Origin: a virus
Strand: one strand, 5' to 3'
Virus record (IMG/VR): IMGVR_UViG_3300046485_000008
Coordinates: 1 to 43,225 of that record
DNA length: 43,225 bases
Below, one piece after another: positions 4,470 to 43,225 of this stretch. The notes beneath the pieces were generated by a model, which was not told the DNA's origin, did not search any database, and saw only the letters and a program-made list of their open reading frames with translations. How positions within the stretch are numbered: position 1 is the first letter of the stretch; each line of letters starts with the position of its first letter. The translations under genes and the position numbers were made by a program.

Positions 4470-4841
4470 ATGAACCTGAACTACTCCCAGACAACGGGGC
4501 GCATTACGAAGGACGATGGGGACCTGGTCACAGAAGGCTGGGCGGGGAATGGCGAGGGAAAGAATAATCCAGCCATGCAGGGAGTCCACTCTGTCGGACC
4601 TCTTCCGCAGGGGGTCTACCGTGTGGACCCTTGGGAAGAACAGCACGGGCACCTCGGACCGATAGTCGCCCACCTCTGCATGATCAGCGGGGACCCGATG
4701 GGGAGGGATGCCTTCTTCATCCACGGACCCAGCATGGGTGAGAACTTCGGGCAGGAGTCCAAAGGGTGCATCGTAATCCCGCGCGAGGGCAGGAAGTGCG
4801 TGAAGTGCCTCCAGCCCGATACCCTCACAGTCACCCCGTAG
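4470..4841 (+). CDS. DUF2778/tlde1-type cell-wall enzyme, probable endolysin
   Basis: A 123-residue protein with the tlde1 (DUF2778) pattern. It starts with a YSQTTGRI strand (5-12), then GPLPQGVYRV (43-52), FIHGPS with His85, and SKGCIVIP with Ser97, Gly99 and Cys100. This is the His plus Ser-x-Gly-Cys core of L,D-transpeptidase-like folds. Tlde1 effectors cut or exchange peptides of peptidoglycan stems in the periplasm. There is no signal peptide, so export would need a holin, and two small membrane proteins follow directly. The ATG has a GGAGAAC site. It stands where an endolysin is expected, and no other lysozyme or amidase was seen in the window. The lytic role is inferred. Confidence 0.72.
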   Translation: MNLNYSQTTGRITKDDGDLVTEGWAGNGEGKNNPAMQGVHSVGPLPQGVYRVDPWEEQHGHLGPIVAHLCMISGDPMGRDAFFIHGPSMGENFGQESKGCIVIPREGRKCVKCLQPDTLTVTP

Positions 4842-12422: not shown

Positions 12423-12587
12423 ATGACCCTCACCGACCACATCACTATCCTCCACTTGATCTCCAACGATGAAGGCTCTGACTTCATAGAGATCGGTTCC
12501 ATTGACACAGAAGCCCCCACAGCGGCAGTCCTGAAGGCTCAGGAACTGGCACAGAAGCTGGAAGCCGCAAAGCCAGGGCAGGTCTAG
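12423..12587 (+). CDS. Small protein ending at an amber codon that is in frame with the next gene
   Basis: A 54-residue product (starts MTLTDHITILHLI) with a TAGGAGCC ribosome site. It stops at TAG 12585-12587. The same frame stays open past this codon into the gene annotated from 12618, and the intervening codons (VYDWADSETI) look like ordinary coding sequence. The next start has no clear ribosome site. The two pieces may therefore be one gene of about 283 codons interrupted by a CAG-to-TAG change, a read-through pair, or a sequencing error. Confidence 0.5.
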   Translation: MTLTDHITILHLISNDEGSDFIEIGSIDTEAPTAAVLKAQELAQKLEAAKPGQV

Positions 12588-12617
12588 GTCTACGACTGGG
12601 CAGACAGCGAGACGATC

Positions 12618-13274
12618 ATGGTGTACCCCGCAGAGGAAGGTCAGGTCTATGGGGAAGAGACTCACACTGGAACCTTCACGATAGAAGTGGAGCCCACCCT
12701 CCAATGGGTGAGGGAGTTCGGTGCTGAGTACCAGTGCCCCCCCTGCCCCTCCTTCCTGGATGACCAGTCATGGCATAACGACATCTGCCCCTCGTATGGC
12801 TATTACAGCGAGGAGCATGGGCAGATGCTGGTGTCCGTGTGGATGGAACACCCTGTCCAGGAGCAGAGAGATTCCCAGGACCTGAAGCGGTTCTGGGCTT
12901 GTGGGACAGAAGCCTCTGGCTACCCCACCATCCTCGCCTCTGATGACTTCGAAGAAGTGGTAGCCGCCGCGAAGGAATCACTGGAGCGCACAGCCGCAGA
13001 GATCGGTCTCACCCTCAGGCATCAAGAGACCAAGAAGCAGACACTGGAACGCCTCAGGAAGACCTTCACGCTCGTGGATGCGTGCTGGTACCCAGAGGAA
13101 CACCCAGAGGTGGATGAAGACAGCATCCCCACAGAAGCCCGTGCGAACGAGATGTCCGAAGAAGCCATCGCCGAATTGAGCCAGATCATCGGACGAGACA
13201 TCGACATGACCGCAGAACACGCCACCTTCGGGGACCTGATCCTCTGGTGCGAAGACGAGATCGCCACCCTTTAA
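12618..13274 (+). CDS. Hypothetical protein, possibly the C-terminal part of a split gene
   Basis: A 218-residue acidic protein from the first available ATG. It has a CPPC pair and a later cysteine (residues about 41-57), aromatic and His-rich sequence (SWHNDICPSYGYYSEEHG), and a helical second half ending in Glu/Asp-rich sequence. No clear ribosome site precedes this ATG. The frame is continuous with the 54-residue gene upstream except for one TAG, so the true N-terminus may be at 12423. The family is not recognised. Confidence 0.55.
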   Translation: MVYPAEEGQVYGEETHTGTFTIEVEPTLQWVREFGAEYQCPPCPSFLDDQSWHNDICPSYGYYSEEHGQMLVSVWMEHPVQEQRDSQDLKRFWACGTEASGYPTILASDDFEEVVAAAKESLERTAAEIGLTLRHQETKKQTLERLRKTFTLVDACWYPEEHPEVDEDSIPTEARANEMSEEAIAELSQIIGRDIDMTAEHATFGDLILWCEDEIATL

Positions 13275-18180: not shown

Positions 18181-18394
18181 ATACGCACTGGTCCCTCTCC
18201 GACTCATGGAGAGATTCCAGATCAAGACCGACCCCGACTCCTTCATCTCGCAGGAGGTGGGGGACGAGGAGGTGGATGCCCTGCTGGATCAGGGATACCT
18301 ATGGGTCCGCACTGAAGGGGGGTTCGCCCTCCTTGAACTCGTCCTGGACCCCTCTGCCGTCGTTCTGGATGCCCTCCAGATCTCCAAGCCATGA
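18158..18394 (+). CDS. Hypothetical small protein
   Basis: The ATG at 18158 is chosen for its GGGGAG site; ATG 18170 is an alternative. The 78-residue product has RYALVPLRLMERFQI and an acidic region with DEEVDALLDQGYLWVRTEGG, ending in a hydrophobic helix. No family is recognised. It overlaps the methyltransferase start by 4 bases. Confidence 0.52.
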   Translation: MTATMKHRYALVPLRLMERFQIKTDPDSFISQEVGDEEVDALLDQGYLWVRTEGGFALLELVLDPSAVVLDALQISKP

Positions 18395-19572
18395 ACCAGG
18401 AGCCCCATGTACCACTTCGCGAGATGCACCTCTTCTCAGGGGCTGGGGGAGGAATCCTCGGTGGGCTCCTTCTCGGGCATGTTCCAGTCTGCGCCATCGA
18501 ACTGGAGGAACACTGTCGGGAGGCTCTGCTCCAGCGTCAAAGGGATGGAGTCCTCCCCTGGTTCCCCATCTGGGATGATGTCCGAACCTTTGACGGAAGA
18601 CCCTGGCGAGGAAGAGTGGACATCTGTGCAGGAGGATGGCCGTGCCAGGACATTTCAGTCGCAGGACTGGGCGAAGGGCTTGATGGAGAACGCTCTGGAC
18701 TCTGGGATCATTTCGCAAGGATTATTGGCGAGATACGACCCCAGATCGTATTCCTGGAAAATTCCCCAGCCCTCACTTCTCGGGGGCTGGGAAGAGTTCT
18801 CGGAGACTTGGCCGAGATGGGGTATCTGGGGGTTCACGGGGTACTGGGCGCAGACGATGCAGGGGCTCCCCATGTCAGGAAGCGGATGTGGATTCTGGCC
18901 TACACCCGTGTCTTCGGATGTGGGAGCGAGGAAGAAGAGATACGCCCAGGGCGGGATGCCCCTGAGCCTAGCCGCCCAGATCTGGCCGACCCCGACATGC
19001 AACATGATCAGCGGGGGTCCGAATCACTCCTCCCCACAGGTCCTGGCGGGGAAGCATGGGATCAATCTGCACGGGGCAGTGATCTCCTGGTCCACCCCGA
19101 AAGCCAGGGACTACCGAAGCCCCAGAGCCAAGGAACCAGACAGCAGGAACAGCCCAGACCTGAATGTTCAGGTGTTCCTGGAGGACGGCCGGCCGAGTGG
19201 TGGGATGTTGAACCCCCTCTGGGTCGCATGGCTGATGGGGTGGCCGCCAGGGTGGGAAGACTCCGAGCCCTTGGGAACGGGCAGGTTCCAGCAGTGGTGC
19301 GACTTGCATGGCATGTCCTGCACGAACGAATGAAACAGACAAGCCATGACAAGTGCCCGATCCTATTCAGGGAGCCTGAACCATCACCCCAGGAACGGCG
19401 CGGCCCCGCACCTCCTGTCCAGAAGGAGCCTGACCGTGAAAAGCCAACTGGTCCCATATCTGTGTTGCTTTGGCTTGGGCATCATCGCCAGAGAATGGCT
19501 TGCCTTAATCCGAATCGCCTTGAAATACATCAGACCGTAACTGTCCACAAGGAGGCACCATGGCTGGGCTGA
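18391..19572 (+). CDS. DNA (cytosine-5) methyltransferase
   Basis: A 393-residue reading frame with the C5-methyltransferase motifs in order: I FSGAGG (15-20), IV GGWPCQD with catalytic Cys85, VI ENS (123-125, ENV in most), VIII RKRMWI (163-168) and IX/X GRLRALGNGQVPAVV (about 303-317). It transfers a methyl group from SAM to carbon 5 of cytosine in phage DNA, usually for protection or as a first step to further modification. The region after motif VIII is low in complexity, and the same DNA encodes a second conserved-looking protein in another frame. The last 80 or so residues run into a compositionally different cassette and may be an artefact of its insertion. The start has no clear ribosome site and relies on coupling (ATGA). 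Confidence 0.85.
   Translation: MNQEPHVPLREMHLFSGAGGGILGGLLLGHVPVCAIELEEHCREALLQRQRDGVLPWFPIWDDVRTFDGRPWRGRVDICAGGWPCQDISVAGLGEGLDGERSGLWDHFARIIGEIRPQIVFLENSPALTSRGLGRVLGDLAEMGYLGVHGVLGADDAGAPHVRKRMWILAYTRVFGCGSEEEEIRPGRDAPEPSRPDLADPDMQHDQRGSESLLPTGPGGEAWDQSARGSDLLVHPESQGLPKPQSQGTRQQEQPRPECSGVPGGRPAEWWDVEPPLGRMADGVAARVGRLRALGNGQVPAVVRLAWHVLHERMKQTSHDKCPILFREPEPSPQERRGPAPPVQKEPDREKPTGPISVLLWLGHHRQRMACLNPNRLEIHQTVTVHKEAPWLG
18407..19333 (+). CDS. Overlapping second protein in the methyltransferase gene
   Basis: A 308-residue frame, +1 relative to the methyltransferase, open across nearly its whole length. Its ATG has a perfect AGGAG four bases upstream, better than the site of the methyltransferase itself. 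It contains ARYDPRSYSWKIPQPSLLGG, FSETWPRWG, two WPTP motifs, LAGKHGINLHGAV, STPKARDYRS and LNPLWVAWLMGWPPGW. I recognise this order from phage proteins usually annotated as methyltransferase-related and from C-terminal parts of other phage cytosine methyltransferases. Conserved motifs in both frames argue for real dual coding. The function is unknown; a target-recognition or partner subunit is inferred. Confidence 0.6.
   Translation: MYHFARCTSSQGLGEESSVGSFSGMFQSAPSNWRNTVGRLCSSVKGMESSPGSPSGMMSEPLTEDPGEEEWTSVQEDGRARTFQSQDWAKGLMENALDSGIISQGLLARYDPRSYSWKIPQPSLLGGWEEFSETWPRWGIWGFTGYWAQTMQGLPMSGSGCGFWPTPVSSDVGARKKRYAQGGMPLSLAAQIWPTPTCNMISGGPNHSSPQVLAGKHGINLHGAVISWSTPKARDYRSPRAKEPDSRNSPDLNVQVFLEDGRPSGGMLNPLWVAWLMGWPPGWEDSEPLGTGRFQQWCDLHGMSCTNE
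19436..19540 (+). CDS. Small membrane protein candidate, first gene of the foreign-looking cassette
   Basis: A 34-residue product from GTG 19436 behind TGTCCAGAAGGAGCC, the leader type shared by the next five genes. It is hydrophobic (PYLCCFGLGIIAREWLALIRI) and ends in a basic KYIRP. It lies inside the C-terminal extension of the methyltransferase frame. The shared leader is the main support. Confidence 0.4.
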   Translation: MKSQLVPYLCCFGLGIIAREWLALIRIALKYIRP

Positions 19573-19760: not shown

Positions 19761-19922
19761 ATGGATTACGACTTCATCACCGACCTTGAGGACACGCTCT
19801 CCAGCTTCCCCGGCTTGGAGGACATCACCCGCCGCCATTGCACCCCCGCAGGGGATACCGGTTTGATCGTCATCACCCTTGAGAACGCGCGGAAGTACAC
19901 CCTGTCCTTTGAACCCGCTTGA
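19761..19922 (+). CDS. Small hypothetical protein, 53 residues
   Basis: The ATG at 19761 follows TGTCCAGGAGATACCCA. The product begins MDYDFITDLEDTL and has a short C-terminal beta hairpin (GLIVITLENARKYTLSF), suggesting a small compact domain. No family is recognised. It carries the cassette leader and a codon use without AGG or AGA arginines. Confidence 0.52.
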   Translation: MDYDFITDLEDTLSSFPGLEDITRRHCTPAGDTGLIVITLENARKYTLSFEPA

Positions 19923-19944
19923 TCTTGTCCAGGAAGGAGCCTCA

Positions 19945-20529
19945 GTGAAGTTCTCAACCATCGTTTCCGATCCACCCTGGGCCTACAATGCCCCGGCCCA
20001 ATTCGGATGCACCCTGGAACACCGTCCCAACCGGGACAAGACCAAGGGATGCCTGGGCGCTGGCTCCAGTTCCCGCTATGGGTCCATGACCATGCCCGAA
20101 TTGAAGGCACTCAAGGTCGAGGATCTGGCCGAGCCCAATGCGCACCTTTACCTCTGGACCACCAATTCATTCATGGTCGAAGCTCACGATCTAGCCCGAG
20201 CGTGGGGATTCGACCCCAAGACCATCATCACCTGGACGAAGTATCGCCATGAGGACGGCCAGCCCTCAATGAAGATGGGCTATTACTACCGAGGGGCCAT
20301 GGAGCATTGTCTGTTCTGTGTCCGTGGATCGCTCCGATTGATGGGTCCAGCGGCTTCCACGGCACTACTCCTACCCCGCCGACCACACAGCGAAAAGCCT
20401 CCCGAGTTCTACGAAATGGTTGAGTCGCAAAGCCCCGGCCCCTACCTGGAAATGTTCTCCCGGCGTAAGCGGTTCGGCTGGTCTGCCTGGGGCAACGAGT
20501 TCAACCCCGATATTCAACTCGGCGCTTAA
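19945..20529 (+). CDS. MT-A70 family N6-adenine methyltransferase
   Basis: A 194-residue protein from GTG 19945, preceded by TGTCCAGGAAGGAGCC. The catalytic motif DPPW lies at 9-12, in STIVSDPPWAYNAP. It is followed by HLYLWTTNSFMVEAHDLARAWGFDPKTIITW-like alternating strands and helices and by RPHSEKP, the usual late motif of MT-A70 phage enzymes. The final motif LEMFSRRKRFGWSAWGNE also fits. It would methylate N6 of adenine in phage DNA. It sits in the cassette with a different leader and codon use, so it may have been acquired separately from the cytosine methyltransferase upstream. Confidence 0.85.
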   Translation: MKFSTIVSDPPWAYNAPAQFGCTLEHRPNRDKTKGCLGAGSSSRYGSMTMPELKALKVEDLAEPNAHLYLWTTNSFMVEAHDLARAWGFDPKTIITWTKYRHEDGQPSMKMGYYYRGAMEHCLFCVRGSLRLMGPAASTALLLPRRPHSEKPPEFYEMVESQSPGPYLEMFSRRKRFGWSAWGNEFNPDIQLGA

Positions 20530-21274: not shown

Positions 21275-22039
21275 ATGGACATCAGGTTCGACATAGACAC
21301 ACGAGCCCTCTTGGATCGCCTCTCTGCTGCCGTGGGAGGCGATCTTGCGAAAGCCACTTCCATCGCCCTGACGAACACAGCCAAGATCGCACGGTCGAAT
21401 GTTCAGGCAGAGATGCGAAGGGTCTTCGACAGACCCAAGGACTACACCATCAATTCGGTGTGGATTGAAGCCAGCACCCGCACGAAGCTGTTCGCATTCG
21501 TCCGCATCGCAGACAGATCTGGCTCCAAGTCCATCCCAGCGTCCAAGTATCTCCAGCCAGAGATCGAGGGAGGCACCCGCAGATCCAAAGCACTGGAGCT
21601 CGCTGTCCTCCAGATCGCGGCACAGCAGAAGGTGGTCCATCTGAAGGGCGTGCTGTCTGGGGATGTTCAGTTCGTGCCAGGGCAAGGGGCAAAGCTGGAC
21701 GCATACGGGAACATGAGCCGTCCATTTTCGAACCAGATGCTGTCGGGCCTACGAGCCTGGACTGCTGAAGGCTTCAGTGCGAATGAGACAACGAAGTCCA
21801 AGAAGCGGAAGCGGAAGGGTGCATCCACGGGCTTCTTCATCGGGCTGATCAAAGGGACCTTCGGGGTCTTCCAAAGGTTCCAGGGTGGAGCAGTGCGCCC
21901 TGTCTTCGTGGCTGTGCGGAAGCCTCACTATCGGGTGCGCCTCAGGTTCAACGAGGTGATCAGGAACACATGGGAAGACGAGTTCCCTGATCAGTTCAAC
22001 AGAGCCGTGAGCCTAATCCTGCTCAAGAGACAGGGATGA
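21275..22039 (+). CDS. Conserved phage protein of unknown function
   Basis: A 254-residue basic protein. The segment ATSIALTNTAKIARSNVQ resembles minor-tail-Z or head-tail joining proteins, and FVPGQGAKLDAYGNMSR is a motif I have seen in several phage proteins encoded close to packaging genes. A Lys/Arg-rich loop (about 173-184) follows. A hairpin CCCCGCAAGGGG directly before the ATG could control its translation. It lies upstream of the packaging genes, so it is probably a virion or morphogenesis protein. The family is not certain. Confidence 0.62.
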   Translation: MDIRFDIDTRALLDRLSAAVGGDLAKATSIALTNTAKIARSNVQAEMRRVFDRPKDYTINSVWIEASTRTKLFAFVRIADRSGSKSIPASKYLQPEIEGGTRRSKALELAVLQIAAQQKVVHLKGVLSGDVQFVPGQGAKLDAYGNMSRPFSNQMLSGLRAWTAEGFSANETTKSKKRKRKGASTGFFIGLIKGTFGVFQRFQGGAVRPVFVAVRKPHYRVRLRFNEVIRNTWEDEFPDQFNRAVSLILLKRQG

Positions 22040-22277: not shown

Positions 22278-22940
22278 ATGGCAGACACCCAGAAAGCTAC
22301 CCCACGAAGCTGGCAGAACAGGATCATCGGGCATGGGGAGGAGGCACCCGACCAGCTTCTGGCGAACCCGAAGAACTGGAGGGTCCACCCAGCCGCGCAA
22401 CAGCAGGGAATGGAGGCAGTCCTGGACACCGTGGGCTGGGTCCAGTCGGTGGTGGTGAACAAGCGCACGGGCTTCCTGGTGGATGGACACCTCCGGGTGA
22501 CCCTTGCCCTGAGGAGATCCGAGCCGATGATCCCTGTGGTCTATGTGGATCTGGACCCCGTGGAGGAGGACCTGATCCTGGCGACCATTGATCCCCTCGC
22601 CTCCATCGCCAGGACCGACCAGGCCAAGATCGCAGAACTTCTGGCAGACATCGGGAGCGCAGACATGGCGGCGGGGGACATCGTGAAGATGATCGCTGAA
22701 GACGCAGGTCTGATCCCAGCTTGCCTCCAGGATGCCGACTCGGAGTGGAAGGGAATGCCCGAGTTCGAACAGGAGGACCAGCTTGCCCACCGTCAGGTCA
22801 TCGTGTCCTTCTCCTGTGATGAGGATGCGGACAGCTTCTTCAAGCTGGTGGGACAGAGCGTGACCCCGAAGACAAAGTCCATCTGGTATCCGAAGCAGGA
22901 GTCCCTGAACCTCAAAGCCCTGGAGGTGGTCCATGAGTGA
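22278..22940 (+). CDS. ParB-like protein before the glycosyltransferase
   Basis: A 220-residue protein. The N-terminal ParB/sulfiredoxin-type domain has LLANPKNWRVHPAAQQQ, LDTVGWVQSVVVNKRTG and VDGHLRVTLAL (the ParB box, G-H-L-R). The remaining part ends with a small domain HRQVIVSFSCDEDADSFFKL followed by TPKTKSIWYP, also seen in phage ParB-like proteins beside DNA-modification genes. It overlaps the glycosyltransferase by 8 bases and probably works in the same pathway, for instance as a nucleotide-dependent DNA-binding or selecting factor. It differs from the ParB-like protein at 15854. Confidence 0.72.
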   Translation: MADTQKATPRSWQNRIIGHGEEAPDQLLANPKNWRVHPAAQQQGMEAVLDTVGWVQSVVVNKRTGFLVDGHLRVTLALRRSEPMIPVVYVDLDPVEEDLILATIDPLASIARTDQAKIAELLADIGSADMAAGDIVKMIAEDAGLIPACLQDADSEWKGMPEFEQEDQLAHRQVIVSFSCDEDADSFFKLVGQSVTPKTKSIWYPKQESLNLKALEVVHE

Positions 22941-23868
22941 TCCCCATCACCCCCAGTTCCCTCTCTACATCCCGAGCAAGGGGCGCCACGAGTACATGAT
23001 CACCAGTAAAGCCCTCACCCAGATGGGGGTGCATCACTTCATCGTGGTGGAGCCCCAGCAGGTGGAGGACTACCAGAGGGCCGTCAAGAAGTTCGACCTG
23101 ATGACCACCGTCCTCCCCCTGGACCTGACCTTCAAGGACCGCTACGAACTCTGCGATGACTTGGGTCTGACCAAGTCCACAGGACCAGGACCAGCCAGGA
23201 ACTTCGCATGGGAGCATTCCATCAGCTTGGGCTTCGACTGGCACTGGGTCATGGATGACAACATCGTGGACTTCCACCGATTGAATAAGAACCTGAAGAT
23301 CCGTGTCCATGCCCCTGTCTTCTGGAGGGTGATGGAGGACTTCTGCCTCCGATACGAGAACGTGGCGATGGCTGGTCCGAACTACGAGATGTTCGTGCCC
23401 AGGAAGGCGAAGGTCCCACCCTTCGTTCTGAACACGCGGATCTATTCCTGCAACCTCATCCGAAATGATGTCCCCTTCAGGTGGCGGGGACGCTACAACG
23501 AGGACACCATCCTGAGCCTCGACATGCTGAAGGCTGGCTGGTGTACCGTCCAGTTCAATGCCTTCCTTCAGAAGAAGCTGAACACCCAGACCATCCCTGG
23601 GGGGAACACCGCCGAGTTCTACCACGCAGAGGGCAAGGTGAAGGACGGGGAGAAGTACGCGGACACAGGCACCCTGGCGAAGTCCAGGATGCAGGTAGCG
23701 GTCCACCCTGATGTCTCCACCCTTGTCTGGCGGTTCAAGCGGTGGCATCACCTCGTTGACTATTCAGGCTTCAGAAGGAATCGTCTAAGGCTCAAGAAGG
23801 GGCTGGAGGTCCAGGCCGATCCCAACGAATACGGGATGACGATCCAGAAGGTGGCGAATGCAAAGTGA
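22933..23868 (+). CDS. TET-associated glycosyltransferase-like protein (TAGT)
   Basis: A 311-residue GT-A-type glycosyltransferase. Motifs in order: YIPSKGR (12-18), HFIVVEPQ, GPARN (86-90), SLGFDWHWVMDDNI (acidic DDN at 108-110, for the metal-bound sugar nucleotide), RYNEDTILSLDMLKAGWC (187-204) and IPGGNTAE. This order fits the TAGT family, defined in phages and in the animal protein GREB1, thought to add sugars to oxidised 5-methylcytosine in DNA. The cytosine methyltransferase could supply the base, but no TET/JBP oxygenase was found. It sits between the ParB-like gene and the terminase. Confidence 0.8.
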   Translation: MSDPHHPQFPLYIPSKGRHEYMITSKALTQMGVHHFIVVEPQQVEDYQRAVKKFDLMTTVLPLDLTFKDRYELCDDLGLTKSTGPGPARNFAWEHSISLGFDWHWVMDDNIVDFHRLNKNLKIRVHAPVFWRVMEDFCLRYENVAMAGPNYEMFVPRKAKVPPFVLNTRIYSCNLIRNDVPFRWRGRYNEDTILSLDMLKAGWCTVQFNAFLQKKLNTQTIPGGNTAEFYHAEGKVKDGEKYADTGTLAKSRMQVAVHPDVSTLVWRFKRWHHLVDYSGFRRNRLRLKKGLEVQADPNEYGMTIQKVANAK

Positions 23869-24061
23869 ACAGGAACGCCAGAAGATGATCGTGAAGGCGA
23901 ACCGGATGCTGGACCAGGGCTTCTGCCTTCAAGCCATCAGCGCGGAGGTGGGGGTTCAGCTTGGAGACCTCATGGACCTGTGCCGAATCCTTGGGCAGCA
24001 GAGGCTCCAGCAGAGGCACGAGAAGCTGGTGGTCCACCAGGAGGGTGATCCATGTCAGTAG
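23858..24061 (+). CDS. Small HTH-like protein before the terminase
   Basis: A 67-residue protein overlapping the glycosyltransferase stop. Residues about 14-44 (RMLDQGFCLQAISAEVGVQL then LMDLCRILG) look like a short helix-turn-helix. The C-terminus is Gln/His-rich. It overlaps the terminase small subunit by 10 bases. It could be a terminase accessory DNA-binding protein. No family is recognised. Confidence 0.5.
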   Translation: MQSEQERQKMIVKANRMLDQGFCLQAISAEVGVQLGDLMDLCRILGQQRLQQRHEKLVVHQEGDPCQ

Positions 24062-24645
24062 GGATCGAGGAGATCTGCCGAGTCCTGGCGGGGCATGGGA
24101 ATCCACCCCTGACTCCTGAGCGTGTGCGACAGCTTGTGAACGAGGGCATGGAGAAGGACGGGCATGGGAAATACGATGCCGTGCGGTGCATGTTCTGGTA
24201 CTTGGGCAAGGTCAGGAGGATGGTCTCCCACAAGGAGACAGAGAACGATGACGGCTCCTCTTCGGGGATCAGGGGAGAGAGGAGGCGGCTCCTCTCTGCT
24301 CAGGCAGACACCGCCGAGATGGAACTGGCGAAGGCACGGGCCGAGACCATCAGCATGGAGGACCATGTCCGAATCCTGTCGGAGCTGGTTCAGGAGACCA
24401 AGGGACGAATGATGTCTATCCCCGCCAGAGCCGCCGCTGATGTGGTGGGGGAGACCTCCCGCGTGATGGTCCAAGCCAAGATCGAGAAGAGGGTGAGGGA
24501 GGCGATGGCTCATCTGGCCGAAAAGAGCCCCAAGCCAGCCACAGAAGTGGAGAAGCCGAAGAGGGAAGTGAAGCCGAAGCCCAAAAAGGAAGAGAAGCCG
24601 AAGGTGAAGAAGAAGCCCACACGCAGGAAGCCTGTGAGCCGCTGA
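24052..24645 (+). CDS. terS: Terminase small subunit (Nu1-like)
   Basis: A 197-residue protein directly upstream of the large subunit, sharing its last base with that gene's start. The N-terminus is a helix-turn-helix (IEEICRVLAGHGNPPLTPER, then VRQLVNEGM), as in lambda Nu1 and DUF1441-type proteins that bind the packaging site. The middle is a long oligomerisation helix (QADTAEMELAKARAETISME). The C-terminal 45 residues are a Lys/Pro/Glu-rich tail that probably contacts DNA or the large subunit. Confidence 0.75.
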   Translation: MSVGIEEICRVLAGHGNPPLTPERVRQLVNEGMEKDGHGKYDAVRCMFWYLGKVRRMVSHKETENDDGSSSGIRGERRRLLSAQADTAEMELAKARAETISMEDHVRILSELVQETKGRMMSIPARAAADVVGETSRVMVQAKIEKRVREAMAHLAEKSPKPATEVEKPKREVKPKPKKEEKPKVKKKPTRRKPVSR

Positions 24646-26552
24646 TGTACCAGACGCACCCATCGGCCCTGGCCGCGCTGGACCTCGCCCACGAGCAGGT
24701 CCGAAGGCTCTGGGAACCTCCTCCCGACATCACTGTCTCCCAGTGGGCAGAGGCGAACAGGGTCATGCCCAGAGGAACCACCTCCCGACCTGGCCCATTC
24801 CGTGCGGAGAAGTTCCAGCGGGAGATGATGGATGTCTTCTGTGATCCCCTGGTCCACAAGATCGCAGTGATGAAGGGGACGCAGATCGGATACACGGATG
24901 CGGTCCTGAACAACCTCATCGGATACACCATAGACCTGGACCCGAAGCCGATAATGATGGTTCTTCCTGGTGGGGATGTGGTCAGGGAATACGCCAGGAA
25001 GCGGCTGAACCCGATGGTCGAAGCCACTCCCTGCCTCAGGTCAAAGGTAAAGGAGGCGAAGTCTCGGGACGGTGGGAACACCCTGAAGATGAAGACCTTC
25101 CCAGGGGGCTTCATCAAGCTGGCGAATGCAGGGTCTGGGAAGGATCTCCGATCTGATCCCATCCCCCTCCTGCTGTTCGATGAAGTGGACGGATACGAGG
25201 ACGATGTGGGAGGTGAGGGTGATCCTCTCCAGATCGGTGAACGGCGAACTGACCAGTACCCTGACGCGAAGATCCTCTACGGTTCCACCCCTGCAAAGCC
25301 GAAGGGCTTCTCCAAGATCGAAGACCTCTACGAGAGGTCAGACAAGCGGCGTTTCCATGTGCCATGCCCCTACTGTGGGCACATGCAGGTCCTGCGCTGG
25401 AGGGACCAGAAGACGAATGTCTACCGACTCACATGGGAGAAGGATGTGGAGGGGTATCCCATCCCCGAGACTGTCCGCTTCATGTGCAACGGGTGCGGGG
25501 TGGGCATCGCTGAACACTTTAAGCAGAGGATGCTGGACTCCGGGGAGTGGCTGGCAGAGTGCCCTGGGCGTGAGATCGTGGGCTTCCACATCAATGCACT
25601 CTACTCACCCTGGAAGGAGAACTGGGCGATCCTGGCGAAGGAGTGGCATGAGGCACAGGGGAACCAGGAGAAGCTTCGCGCCTTCATCAATCTGAGACTC
25701 GGGGAGACCTTTGAGGAATCAGGGGACAGGCTGGAAGCAGAAGGTCTCGGAACCCGTCTGGAGGAATGGCCCGAGGACATCATCCCTCACGATGTGGCTG
25801 TCCTCACTGCTCAGGCCGATGTCCAGGGGAACCGGATCGAGGCGACCATCGAGGGCTGGGCGGCCGGGGAACAGTCGTATCTGATCCACAGGGAGGTGTT
25901 CTGGGGTGACCCATCCACTGACCCTGGGGTCTGGGAACAGCTTGAGGAGTTCCGCTTGAGGGAGTGGAAGCACTCCTGCGGTGCCATCCTGCGCCCGATC
26001 ATTCTCGTCGTGGATTCAGGAGACCAGACAGATGCGGTCTACGACTATGTCCTCCCTCGGCAGAACATCAGGGACAGGGTCTTCGCCATCAAGGGGGTGG
26101 ACTTCCATGCGAAGCCAGTGCTGGTCCAGGATGGAGCCAGCAAGCGTCACGCCATCCGACTGTTCACGGTGGCGACCCATGCGGCGAAGGAACGGATCTT
26201 CTCCCGCCTGAAGATGAACAAGCCAGAGCCAGGACAGCCCTATCCTCAGGGCTGGATTCATCTGCCCACCCATCTGGCGAACGAAGAGTATCTGGCACAG
26301 CTAACCTCCGAGAAGAAGCTGACGGTCACCGACAAGAAGACCAGGGCTCGGAAGGTGGTCTGGGTGAAGACGCACACTCGGAACGAGGCTCTGGACTTGA
26401 AGGTCTACGCCCTGGCCGCCCTGTTCATTCTCCAGAACCACATCGACCCAGTGACCTTCAGGGATCTGGGAGCCCTGGCCGCCGCCATCAGGGGGGAAGT
26501 CCCACTGGCGGGGAGGAGGACCAGGGGCATGAGGTCTCAGGCTGGCGGGTGA
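24645..26552 (+). CDS. terL: Terminase large subunit, GpA type
   Basis: A 635-residue GpA-family packaging motor. The ATPase part has a deviant Walker A AVMKGTQIGYT (74-84), as is usual in GpA proteins, and Walker B PLLLFDEVDG (174-183). A zinc-like pair of knuckles, CPYC (241-244) and CNGC (281-284), separates it from the nuclease. The nuclease has TAQADVQGNRIEATIEGW (Asp392) and VVDSGDQTDAVYDYV (Asp457). The enzyme cuts concatemers and pumps DNA into the prohead. GpA relatives often make cohesive ends, so cos packaging is favoured, but the window ends show no matching overhangs. Confidence 0.92.
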   Translation: MYQTHPSALAALDLAHEQVRRLWEPPPDITVSQWAEANRVMPRGTTSRPGPFRAEKFQREMMDVFCDPLVHKIAVMKGTQIGYTDAVLNNLIGYTIDLDPKPIMMVLPGGDVVREYARKRLNPMVEATPCLRSKVKEAKSRDGGNTLKMKTFPGGFIKLANAGSGKDLRSDPIPLLLFDEVDGYEDDVGGEGDPLQIGERRTDQYPDAKILYGSTPAKPKGFSKIEDLYERSDKRRFHVPCPYCGHMQVLRWRDQKTNVYRLTWEKDVEGYPIPETVRFMCNGCGVGIAEHFKQRMLDSGEWLAECPGREIVGFHINALYSPWKENWAILAKEWHEAQGNQEKLRAFINLRLGETFEESGDRLEAEGLGTRLEEWPEDIIPHDVAVLTAQADVQGNRIEATIEGWAAGEQSYLIHREVFWGDPSTDPGVWEQLEEFRLREWKHSCGAILRPIILVVDSGDQTDAVYDYVLPRQNIRDRVFAIKGVDFHAKPVLVQDGASKRHAIRLFTVATHAAKERIFSRLKMNKPEPGQPYPQGWIHLPTHLANEEYLAQLTSEKKLTVTDKKTRARKVVWVKTHTRNEALDLKVYALAALFILQNHIDPVTFRDLGALAAAIRGEVPLAGRRTRGMRSQAGG

Positions 26553-43077: not shown

Positions 43078-43225
43078 TGACCACATACCAGACCTTCGAA
43101 GTGCTGGAGATCGAGCCCAACGCACGAGAGGACAGGACCGACACCCTAACCAGGACCTTCGTCCGCTTTGACCCAGGGCTGGGTGCTGTGGCTGTGGATG
43201 ACCGTGGCGGGACTCCAATCGCCTC
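43077..43225 (+). CDS. N-terminal part of the tail protein that continues at position 1
   Basis: Forty-nine codons from ATG 43077 (it shares its first base with the stop of the preceding gene), starting MTTYQTFEVLEI and ending GGTPIA with a trailing TC. No stop precedes the edge. The reading frame of the first gene in the window (from base 1, beginning TCG) matches if the trailing TC is the same as the leading TC, giving PIASFSWFLDW. The protein would be about 201 residues. It is therefore the missing N-terminus of that tail gene if the molecule is circular or permuted. Confidence 0.72.
   Translation, partial: MTTYQTFEVLEIEPNAREDRTDTLTRTFVRFDPGLGAVAVDDRGGTPIA

Follow-up and report, generated by a model that had tools for sequence, protein, structure and literature searches.

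Organization of the locus

The window analysed here is the whole 43,225-nucleotide stretch of viral DNA. It carries, just ahead of the terminase genes, a gene pair coding for a ParB-like protein that ends in a small domain, named MPEF after its motif, and for a glycosyltransferase of the TAGT family. The features of this region, all on the + strand, are the following.

18391..19572, + strand: C5-cytosine methyltransferase (PF00145, E=1.4e-25), outside the conserved cassette
19879..20529, + strand: MT-A70-type adenine methyltransferase (PF05063, E=4e-24), not conserved with the TAGT
21275..22039, + strand: minor tail protein (phrog_1924 tail, E=1.7e-53; PF06763, E=0.001, below cut-off)
22278..22940, + strand: ParB-MPEF partner, 220 aa, directly upstream of the TAGT; ParB fold by structure search and by profile comparison with solved ParBs
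22347..22673, + strand: ParB/Srx domain, residues 24-132 (phrog_498 and phrog_620; similar to the amino-terminal portion of a type II methyltransferase model)
22746..22892, + strand: MPEF domain, W157 to P205 (HMM 5e-25; no Pfam family)
22933..22940, + strand: overlap of the ParB-MPEF and TAGT frames, 8 bases, read from the sequence itself
22933..23868, + strand: TAGT-family glycosyltransferase (PF20691), 311 aa (Pfam E=3.8e-42; phrog_842; predicted GT-A fold)
23254..23262, + strand: DDN motif, D108 D109 N110; expected metal/nucleotide-sugar site, by analogy with the GT-A fold
23503..23505, + strand: D191, within the NED motif; probable region of the catalytic base
24052..26552, + strand: small and large terminase subunits (PF07471, below cut-off; PF05876; PF20454), just downstream of the TAGT

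The overlap between the two frames of the pair suggests that synthesis of ParB-MPEF and TAGT is translationally coupled.

The TAGT protein

The TAGT family was reportedly defined by Iyer et al. in 2013. The product of 22933-23868 is a TAGT with unbroken catalytic motifs, as a reading of the sequence alone had proposed. The PF20691 match spans residues 9-219 and profile positions 1-201 of 205 (145 bits for a cut-off of 27.5), and phrog_842 matches the same ORF with E=1.4e-41. Among 122 relatives D108-D109 (WVMDDN), D191 (NED) and G223-G224 are 100% conserved. The three aspartates are invariant also in eight outgroup TAGTs, including Ggt of phage T6, and the glycine pair is found in T6 Ggt and in TET-linked TAGTs. 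Judged by these residues, the GT-A motifs DD and NED are intact.

Sequence search gave no solved structure matching the TAGT. An AlphaFold2 model was obtained for a relative that carries MPEF fused to TAGT (L315, with 46-48% identity to the window TAGT), so that its values describe the relative: pLDDT is 90.5, pTM is 0.88, and both parts fold into a single body. The model has a GT-A fold and matches GalNAc-T2 with a Z of 14.2 over 235 residues in a structure search. The window TAGT has a positive net charge and would transfer a sugar onto DNA.

The ParB-MPEF partner

The sequence-only reading had noted two ParB-like proteins in the window without recognising one of them as the TAGT's conserved partner. 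Relatives are encoded on more than 598 viral stretches, of which 80 were kept. When the window proteins were compared with relatives' loci by tblastn, a homologue of the ParB at 22278-22940 stood directly upstream of the TAGT in 91 of 97. ParB-MPEF precedes the TAGT in 137 of 138 cases among relatives. A median of 2 nt separates the ParB stop from the TAGT domain, and the gap is at most 90 nt in 126/138. Of these 138 ParB-type loci, 98 have a terminase-like family downstream, and the cassette precedes the terminase in most relatives. Across 21 genomes or prophage regions, which are not independent as seven share a backbone or many genes, ParB-MPEF and TAGT are the only families common to all; no third one is found at blastp or profile level, and the next real family is a terminase present in 14.

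The amino-terminal domain of the partner has the fold of ParB (Foldseek matches 7bm8 and 6sdk), with G70 of the conserved G..R loop invariant and R73 nearly so, and its closest folds are CTP-binding ParBs. It matches ParB domains carried by DNA methyltransferases (phrog_498; PDLC03229, with 1.9e-8 for the window protein and 1.8e-37 for its E. coli homologue). It is also 53-58% identical to ParB domains of Stenotrophomonas phages that are encoded a short way ahead of the terminase and continue into a different C-terminal part. In Stenotrophomonas phage Suso, the product of L325:43835-44584 is annotated as a DNA methylase and is actually a ParB domain with only a short methyltransferase-like tail.

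MPEF forms the final third of the protein, with the motif W..MPEF...TKSIWYP. It has no Pfam match and is apparently a small undescribed domain. Queried independently it returned 78 domains, every one of which has a TAGT nearby (78/78), so that it can be read as an adaptor devoted to TAGT. It occurs joined to ParB in 95 loci, standing alone just upstream of the TAGT in 42, and fused to the TAGT amino terminus in 15 plain cases and in L097, beside a TET. Prophages with the window's MPEF type occur in Chryseobacterium gambrini DSM 18014 and C. daeguense DSM 19388. A role of MPEF as substitute for TET was considered and rejected: the domain co-occurs with TET (L097, L317) and, in T4-like phages, with a hydroxymethylase gene.

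Other genes of the window and around the TAGT

The C5-methyltransferase, which the sequence-only reading had listed with the pathway, is matched in none of the remaining 20 of the 21 genomes or regions and is found by tblastn in 2 of 97 relatives' loci; it was rejected as maker of the acceptor, since the relatives do not share it. The MT-A70-type enzyme is present in 2/21 genomes or regions and in 1/97 relatives' loci. Two ORFs had been put forward as oxygenase candidates. That at 21275-22039 was rejected, since its profile match (phrog_1924) identifies a minor tail protein; that at 12423-13274 has an in-frame TAG at codon 55, and the true open frame, 12618-13274, has no family match in any library searched. 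Family searches recognised no other glycosyltransferase in the window, separate alpha-GT and beta-GT models lying outside the scan. A DNA-level search of the phage collection found no relative of the window. A Tlde1-domain protein (4470-4841; PF10908, E=7e-11) is encoded in the tail/lysis region and is probably a phage lysis enzyme.

In relatives, a cytidylyltransferase (PF01467) adjoins MPEF-TAGT in 43 loci (e.g. L062:10906-11358), and some TAGTs have as neighbour an FkbM methyltransferase (7 loci), an NAD-dependent epimerase (8) or another class I methyltransferase. This company fits sugar-nucleotide supply and sugar decoration, and the cytidylyltransferase, FkbM and epimerase proteins possibly act as donors or decorators of the sugar.

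Completeness of the window and search for TET/JBP and hydroxymethylase

The two ends of the window (43078-43225 and 1-459) are parts of a single tail gene split by the cut. Across the junction, 49 residues before and 152 after it align in register to a single unbroken tail gene of Suso, a Stenotrophomonas phage (187 residues aligned for 189 codons), the join being imperfect by a one-base frame shift. Since both ends fall inside one gene that is continuous in Suso, the window represents the phage genome essentially in full, which bears out the earlier estimate that it was nearly so.

A TET/JBP hit in the window, named beforehand as a finding that would speak against a TET-less TAGT, was looked for and is absent. 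PF12851 gave no match in six frames at E<=10. A second profile, which included divergent phage TETs and was run with all filters off, reached at best 1.7 bits in the window, against 238-431 bits for the control sequences from which it was built. The Pfam search does pick up real TETs elsewhere, divergent ones included, in a TET-bearing contig from the bacterial genomes and in phages Altadena, Indlovu, S-CBWM1 and P12024L, which served as positive controls; the divergent TETs score under the Pfam cut-off. HxD motifs were too frequent across six frames to be informative. On the strength of the two profiles a TET/JBP gene hidden in the window was rejected; the window shows no such gene beside its TAGT, where TET-TAGT cassettes have one. 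The thymidylate-synthase/hydroxymethylase fold (PF00303) gave no match either, leaving the window without the dCMP/dUMP hydroxymethylase of T-even-type pool hydroxymethylation. With neither TET/JBP nor a pyrimidine hydroxymethylase encoded there, the earlier suggestion of an acceptor supplied from another source gains support.

Lack of TET is also no oddity of one genome, as it had been taken to be. TET was found in none of 43 viral records (the nearest relatives, among the largest kept), in none of 35 further records fetched through a Vibrio relative, and is absent from 49 of 50 records fetched through MPEF. Many of these relatives are fragments, so that each single absence is weak. TET is missing as well from 16 of 17 prophage-bearing bacterial genomes with the cassette, and supply of TET by the host was rejected on this ground; in the one positive genome TET shares a contig with a ParB-less fused MPEF-TAGT and a second TAGT. 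None of the 28 viral records from the window's branch has PF00303. As a rule, TAGTs of this branch come without TET, and no hydroxylase recurs among the genes near the TAGT in relatives.

Comparison with known systems

In the phages considered by the sequence-only reading, TAGTs act on hydroxymethylcytosine (hmC) made by TET. This proves too narrow: the TAGT of T6 adds a second glucose to hmC that is already glucosylated (alpha-glucosyl-hmC), and this hmC originates in nucleotides hydroxymethylated at the pool stage (PMC13216743, PMC13390438). T6 Ggt, the beta-glucosyl-HMC-alpha-glucosyltransferase, belongs to the same Pfam family as the window TAGT and has the DD, D191 and GG positions in common with it. 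It differs in lying beside the dCMP hydroxymethylase gp42, in having no adjoining ParB and in occupying a separate part of the tree.

TET/JBP-TAGT cassettes (Arthrobacter phage Altadena, Mycobacterium phage Indlovu, Nonlabens phage P12024L; L145-L187) share the TAGT-family transferase. A ParB gene lies upstream in 42 of 45 TET loci, and also in Altadena and Indlovu; TET sits between ParB and TAGT, MPEF is lacking, and some of these cassettes have a GlcNAc deacetylase. In Indlovu the gene between ParB and TAGT (L328:809-1687), annotated as queuine tRNA-ribosyltransferase, gives a weak TET/JBP match (PF12851, below cut-off) and is probably misannotated. The methyltransferase likeness of the ParB domain, together with the upstream ParB of TET phages, leads to its reading as a shared module: it looks like a DNA-directing component common to post-replicative modification cassettes.

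The TAGTs of T4-like Aeromonas phages, Kuja and henriette 12B8 belong to the same clade as the window TAGT (about 46-51% identical) and have MPEF, as fusions or pairs; their MPEF protein lacks ParB, and several of these phages encode a thymidylate-synthase/hydroxymethylase.

TAGTs without a known partner were reported earlier, 288 of 753 phage genomes having a TAGT but neither alpha- nor beta-GT (PMC13216743). They were noted there as unexplained, with no mention of ParB. The open-access papers searched contained neither the ParB-TAGT partnership nor TET, TAGT and ParB together, and the link may be new.

ParB-TAGT pairs beyond the window's branch

DNA similarity to a Pantoea relative led to ynaK-type ParBs in 1,587 of 5,426 complete E. 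coli genomes. In the E. coli prophage examined, the gene after ParB is annotated 'hypothetical protein' and is a TAGT (PF20691, E=1.7e-35); this TAGT is present over >=80% of its length in 865 of the 5,426. The pair lies just before the terminase in C7 (L334:3501-5214) and STEC308 (L333:4288-5220). Annotations of the E. coli TAGTs read 'hypothetical' or 'GREB1-related', and the ynaK ParB is called a truncated pseudogene in L333:3501-3758 and L342:3220-3477, other genomes having an intact 262-aa form. L342 (NZ_CM135829.1) is an E. coli labelled DH5alpha that has a TAGT prophage; the strain label looks doubtful.

The same order, ParB immediately before TAGT and upstream of the terminase, is found in archaeal virus HHTV-2 (Haloarcula), Lactobacillus phages jlb1 (L. 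gasseri) and c5 (L. delbrueckii) and a Porphyromonas phage, and by profile in Nocardia phage NTR1. Like the window, the E. coli, Lactobacillus, Nocardia, Porphyromonas and HHTV-2 pairs lack TET, and both TET and PF00303 are missing from six complete isolated ParB-TAGT genomes. The ParBs of this sister branch differ from that of the window in having another C-terminal domain in place of MPEF, and their TAGTs form a distant branch. No TAGT was found on plasmids. Phages often have ParB ahead of the terminase for other reasons, so that for the non-MPEF branch the neighbourhood alone is weak evidence.

A candidate DNA-glycosylation cassette

The best reading of the locus, and on balance a probable one, is a ParB-directed, TET-independent DNA-glycosylation cassette. 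Counted in its favour are the conserved linked pair, the MPEF-TAGT fusions, the methyltransferase-like ParB, the sugar-nucleotide neighbours and the positive charge of the TAGT; the acidity of ParB-MPEF (-15) is odd for a DNA binder and counts against it. ParB-MPEF and TAGT would form a compact, horizontally moving cassette, whose expression would accompany that of the late genes ahead of the terminase. The ParB domain would bind phage DNA and serve as guide, MPEF would hold or tether the TAGT, and the TAGT would take a sugar off a nucleotide-sugar and attach it to DNA. Neither TET/JBP nor a thymidylate-synthase-type hydroxymethylase would make the acceptor, and the sugar may protect against host nucleases.

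To our knowledge, DNA glycosylation requires a prior hydroxyl on the base, introduced by TET/JBP or at the nucleotide stage. As no recurrent hydroxylase accompanies the TAGT, the acceptor is either not made by known enzymes, or comes from an unrecognised enzyme, or is not a hydroxymethyl base. We put forward only tentatively that ParB-MPEF and TAGT alone suffice to glycosylate bases that were never hydroxymethylated, for instance at an exocyclic amine or on a self-made acceptor, a chemistry for which we know of no precedent.

A less probable alternative is that an unrecognised hydroxylase, from a fast-evolving phage gene or from the host, makes the acceptor and that the TAGT works classically on a hydroxymethyl-pyrimidine. 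The T6 TAGT, whose chemistry was worked out, acts on hydroxymethyl-derived DNA (PMC13216743), and the ParB-TET-TAGT order of Altadena, Indlovu and L097 indicates that ancestors of the cassette may have had TET. However, without a third family common to the 21 genomes or regions such a hydroxylase would need to vary phage by phage; the TET-less bacterial genomes with the cassette (16/17) and the lack of a family match for ORF 12618-13274 also speak against it.

GT-A/GT2-like enzymes glycosylate proteins too. That the TAGT modifies a protein, of the phage or of the host, or another polymer, its link to ParB reflecting a common insertion spot before the terminase, seems to us more doubtful still. 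The GT-A fold is near that of protein- and polysaccharide-modifying enzymes, and FkbM methyltransferase, epimerase and cytidylyltransferase neighbours would also suit surface glycans, but ParB and TAGT are joined domain by domain through MPEF. MPEF-TAGT fusions moreover occur alongside a thymidylate-synthase/hydroxymethylase gene in T4-like Aeromonas phages and Kuja, and TAGTs of T4-like phages usually serve in DNA glycosylation.

It is very improbable that the TAGT is a second-step enzyme extending a sugar placed by another glycosyltransferase: T6 TAGT does so (PMC13216743) and L097 and Kuja have two TAGTs each, yet the general family searches found no further glycosyltransferase in the window and solitary TAGTs are common (288/753 genomes; PMC13216743). 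Least credible of all is a TET/JBP gene missed or lying outside the window, which might be short by a few bases and where a divergent TET could fall under the Pfam cut-off: the ends join inside one gene, the divergent-TET profile finds nothing and the six complete isolated ParB-TAGT genomes likewise lack TET.

A new kind of base-modification pathway, as first suggested for this locus, is possible. The cassette recurs with neither TET/JBP nor hydroxymethylase in unrelated bacterial viruses and in one archaeal virus, and ParB gives the solitary TAGTs (PMC13216743) a consistent partner. Either DNA is sugar-coated by an unrecognised route or the enzyme has another target, and both readings can be tested in cultured viruses available now. 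If DNA is indeed glycosylated, a widespread way of coating it with sugar has escaped notice, and this would bear on restriction, CRISPR and other defences. The sister form of the pair resides in prophages of at least 865 of the 5,426 complete E. coli genomes.
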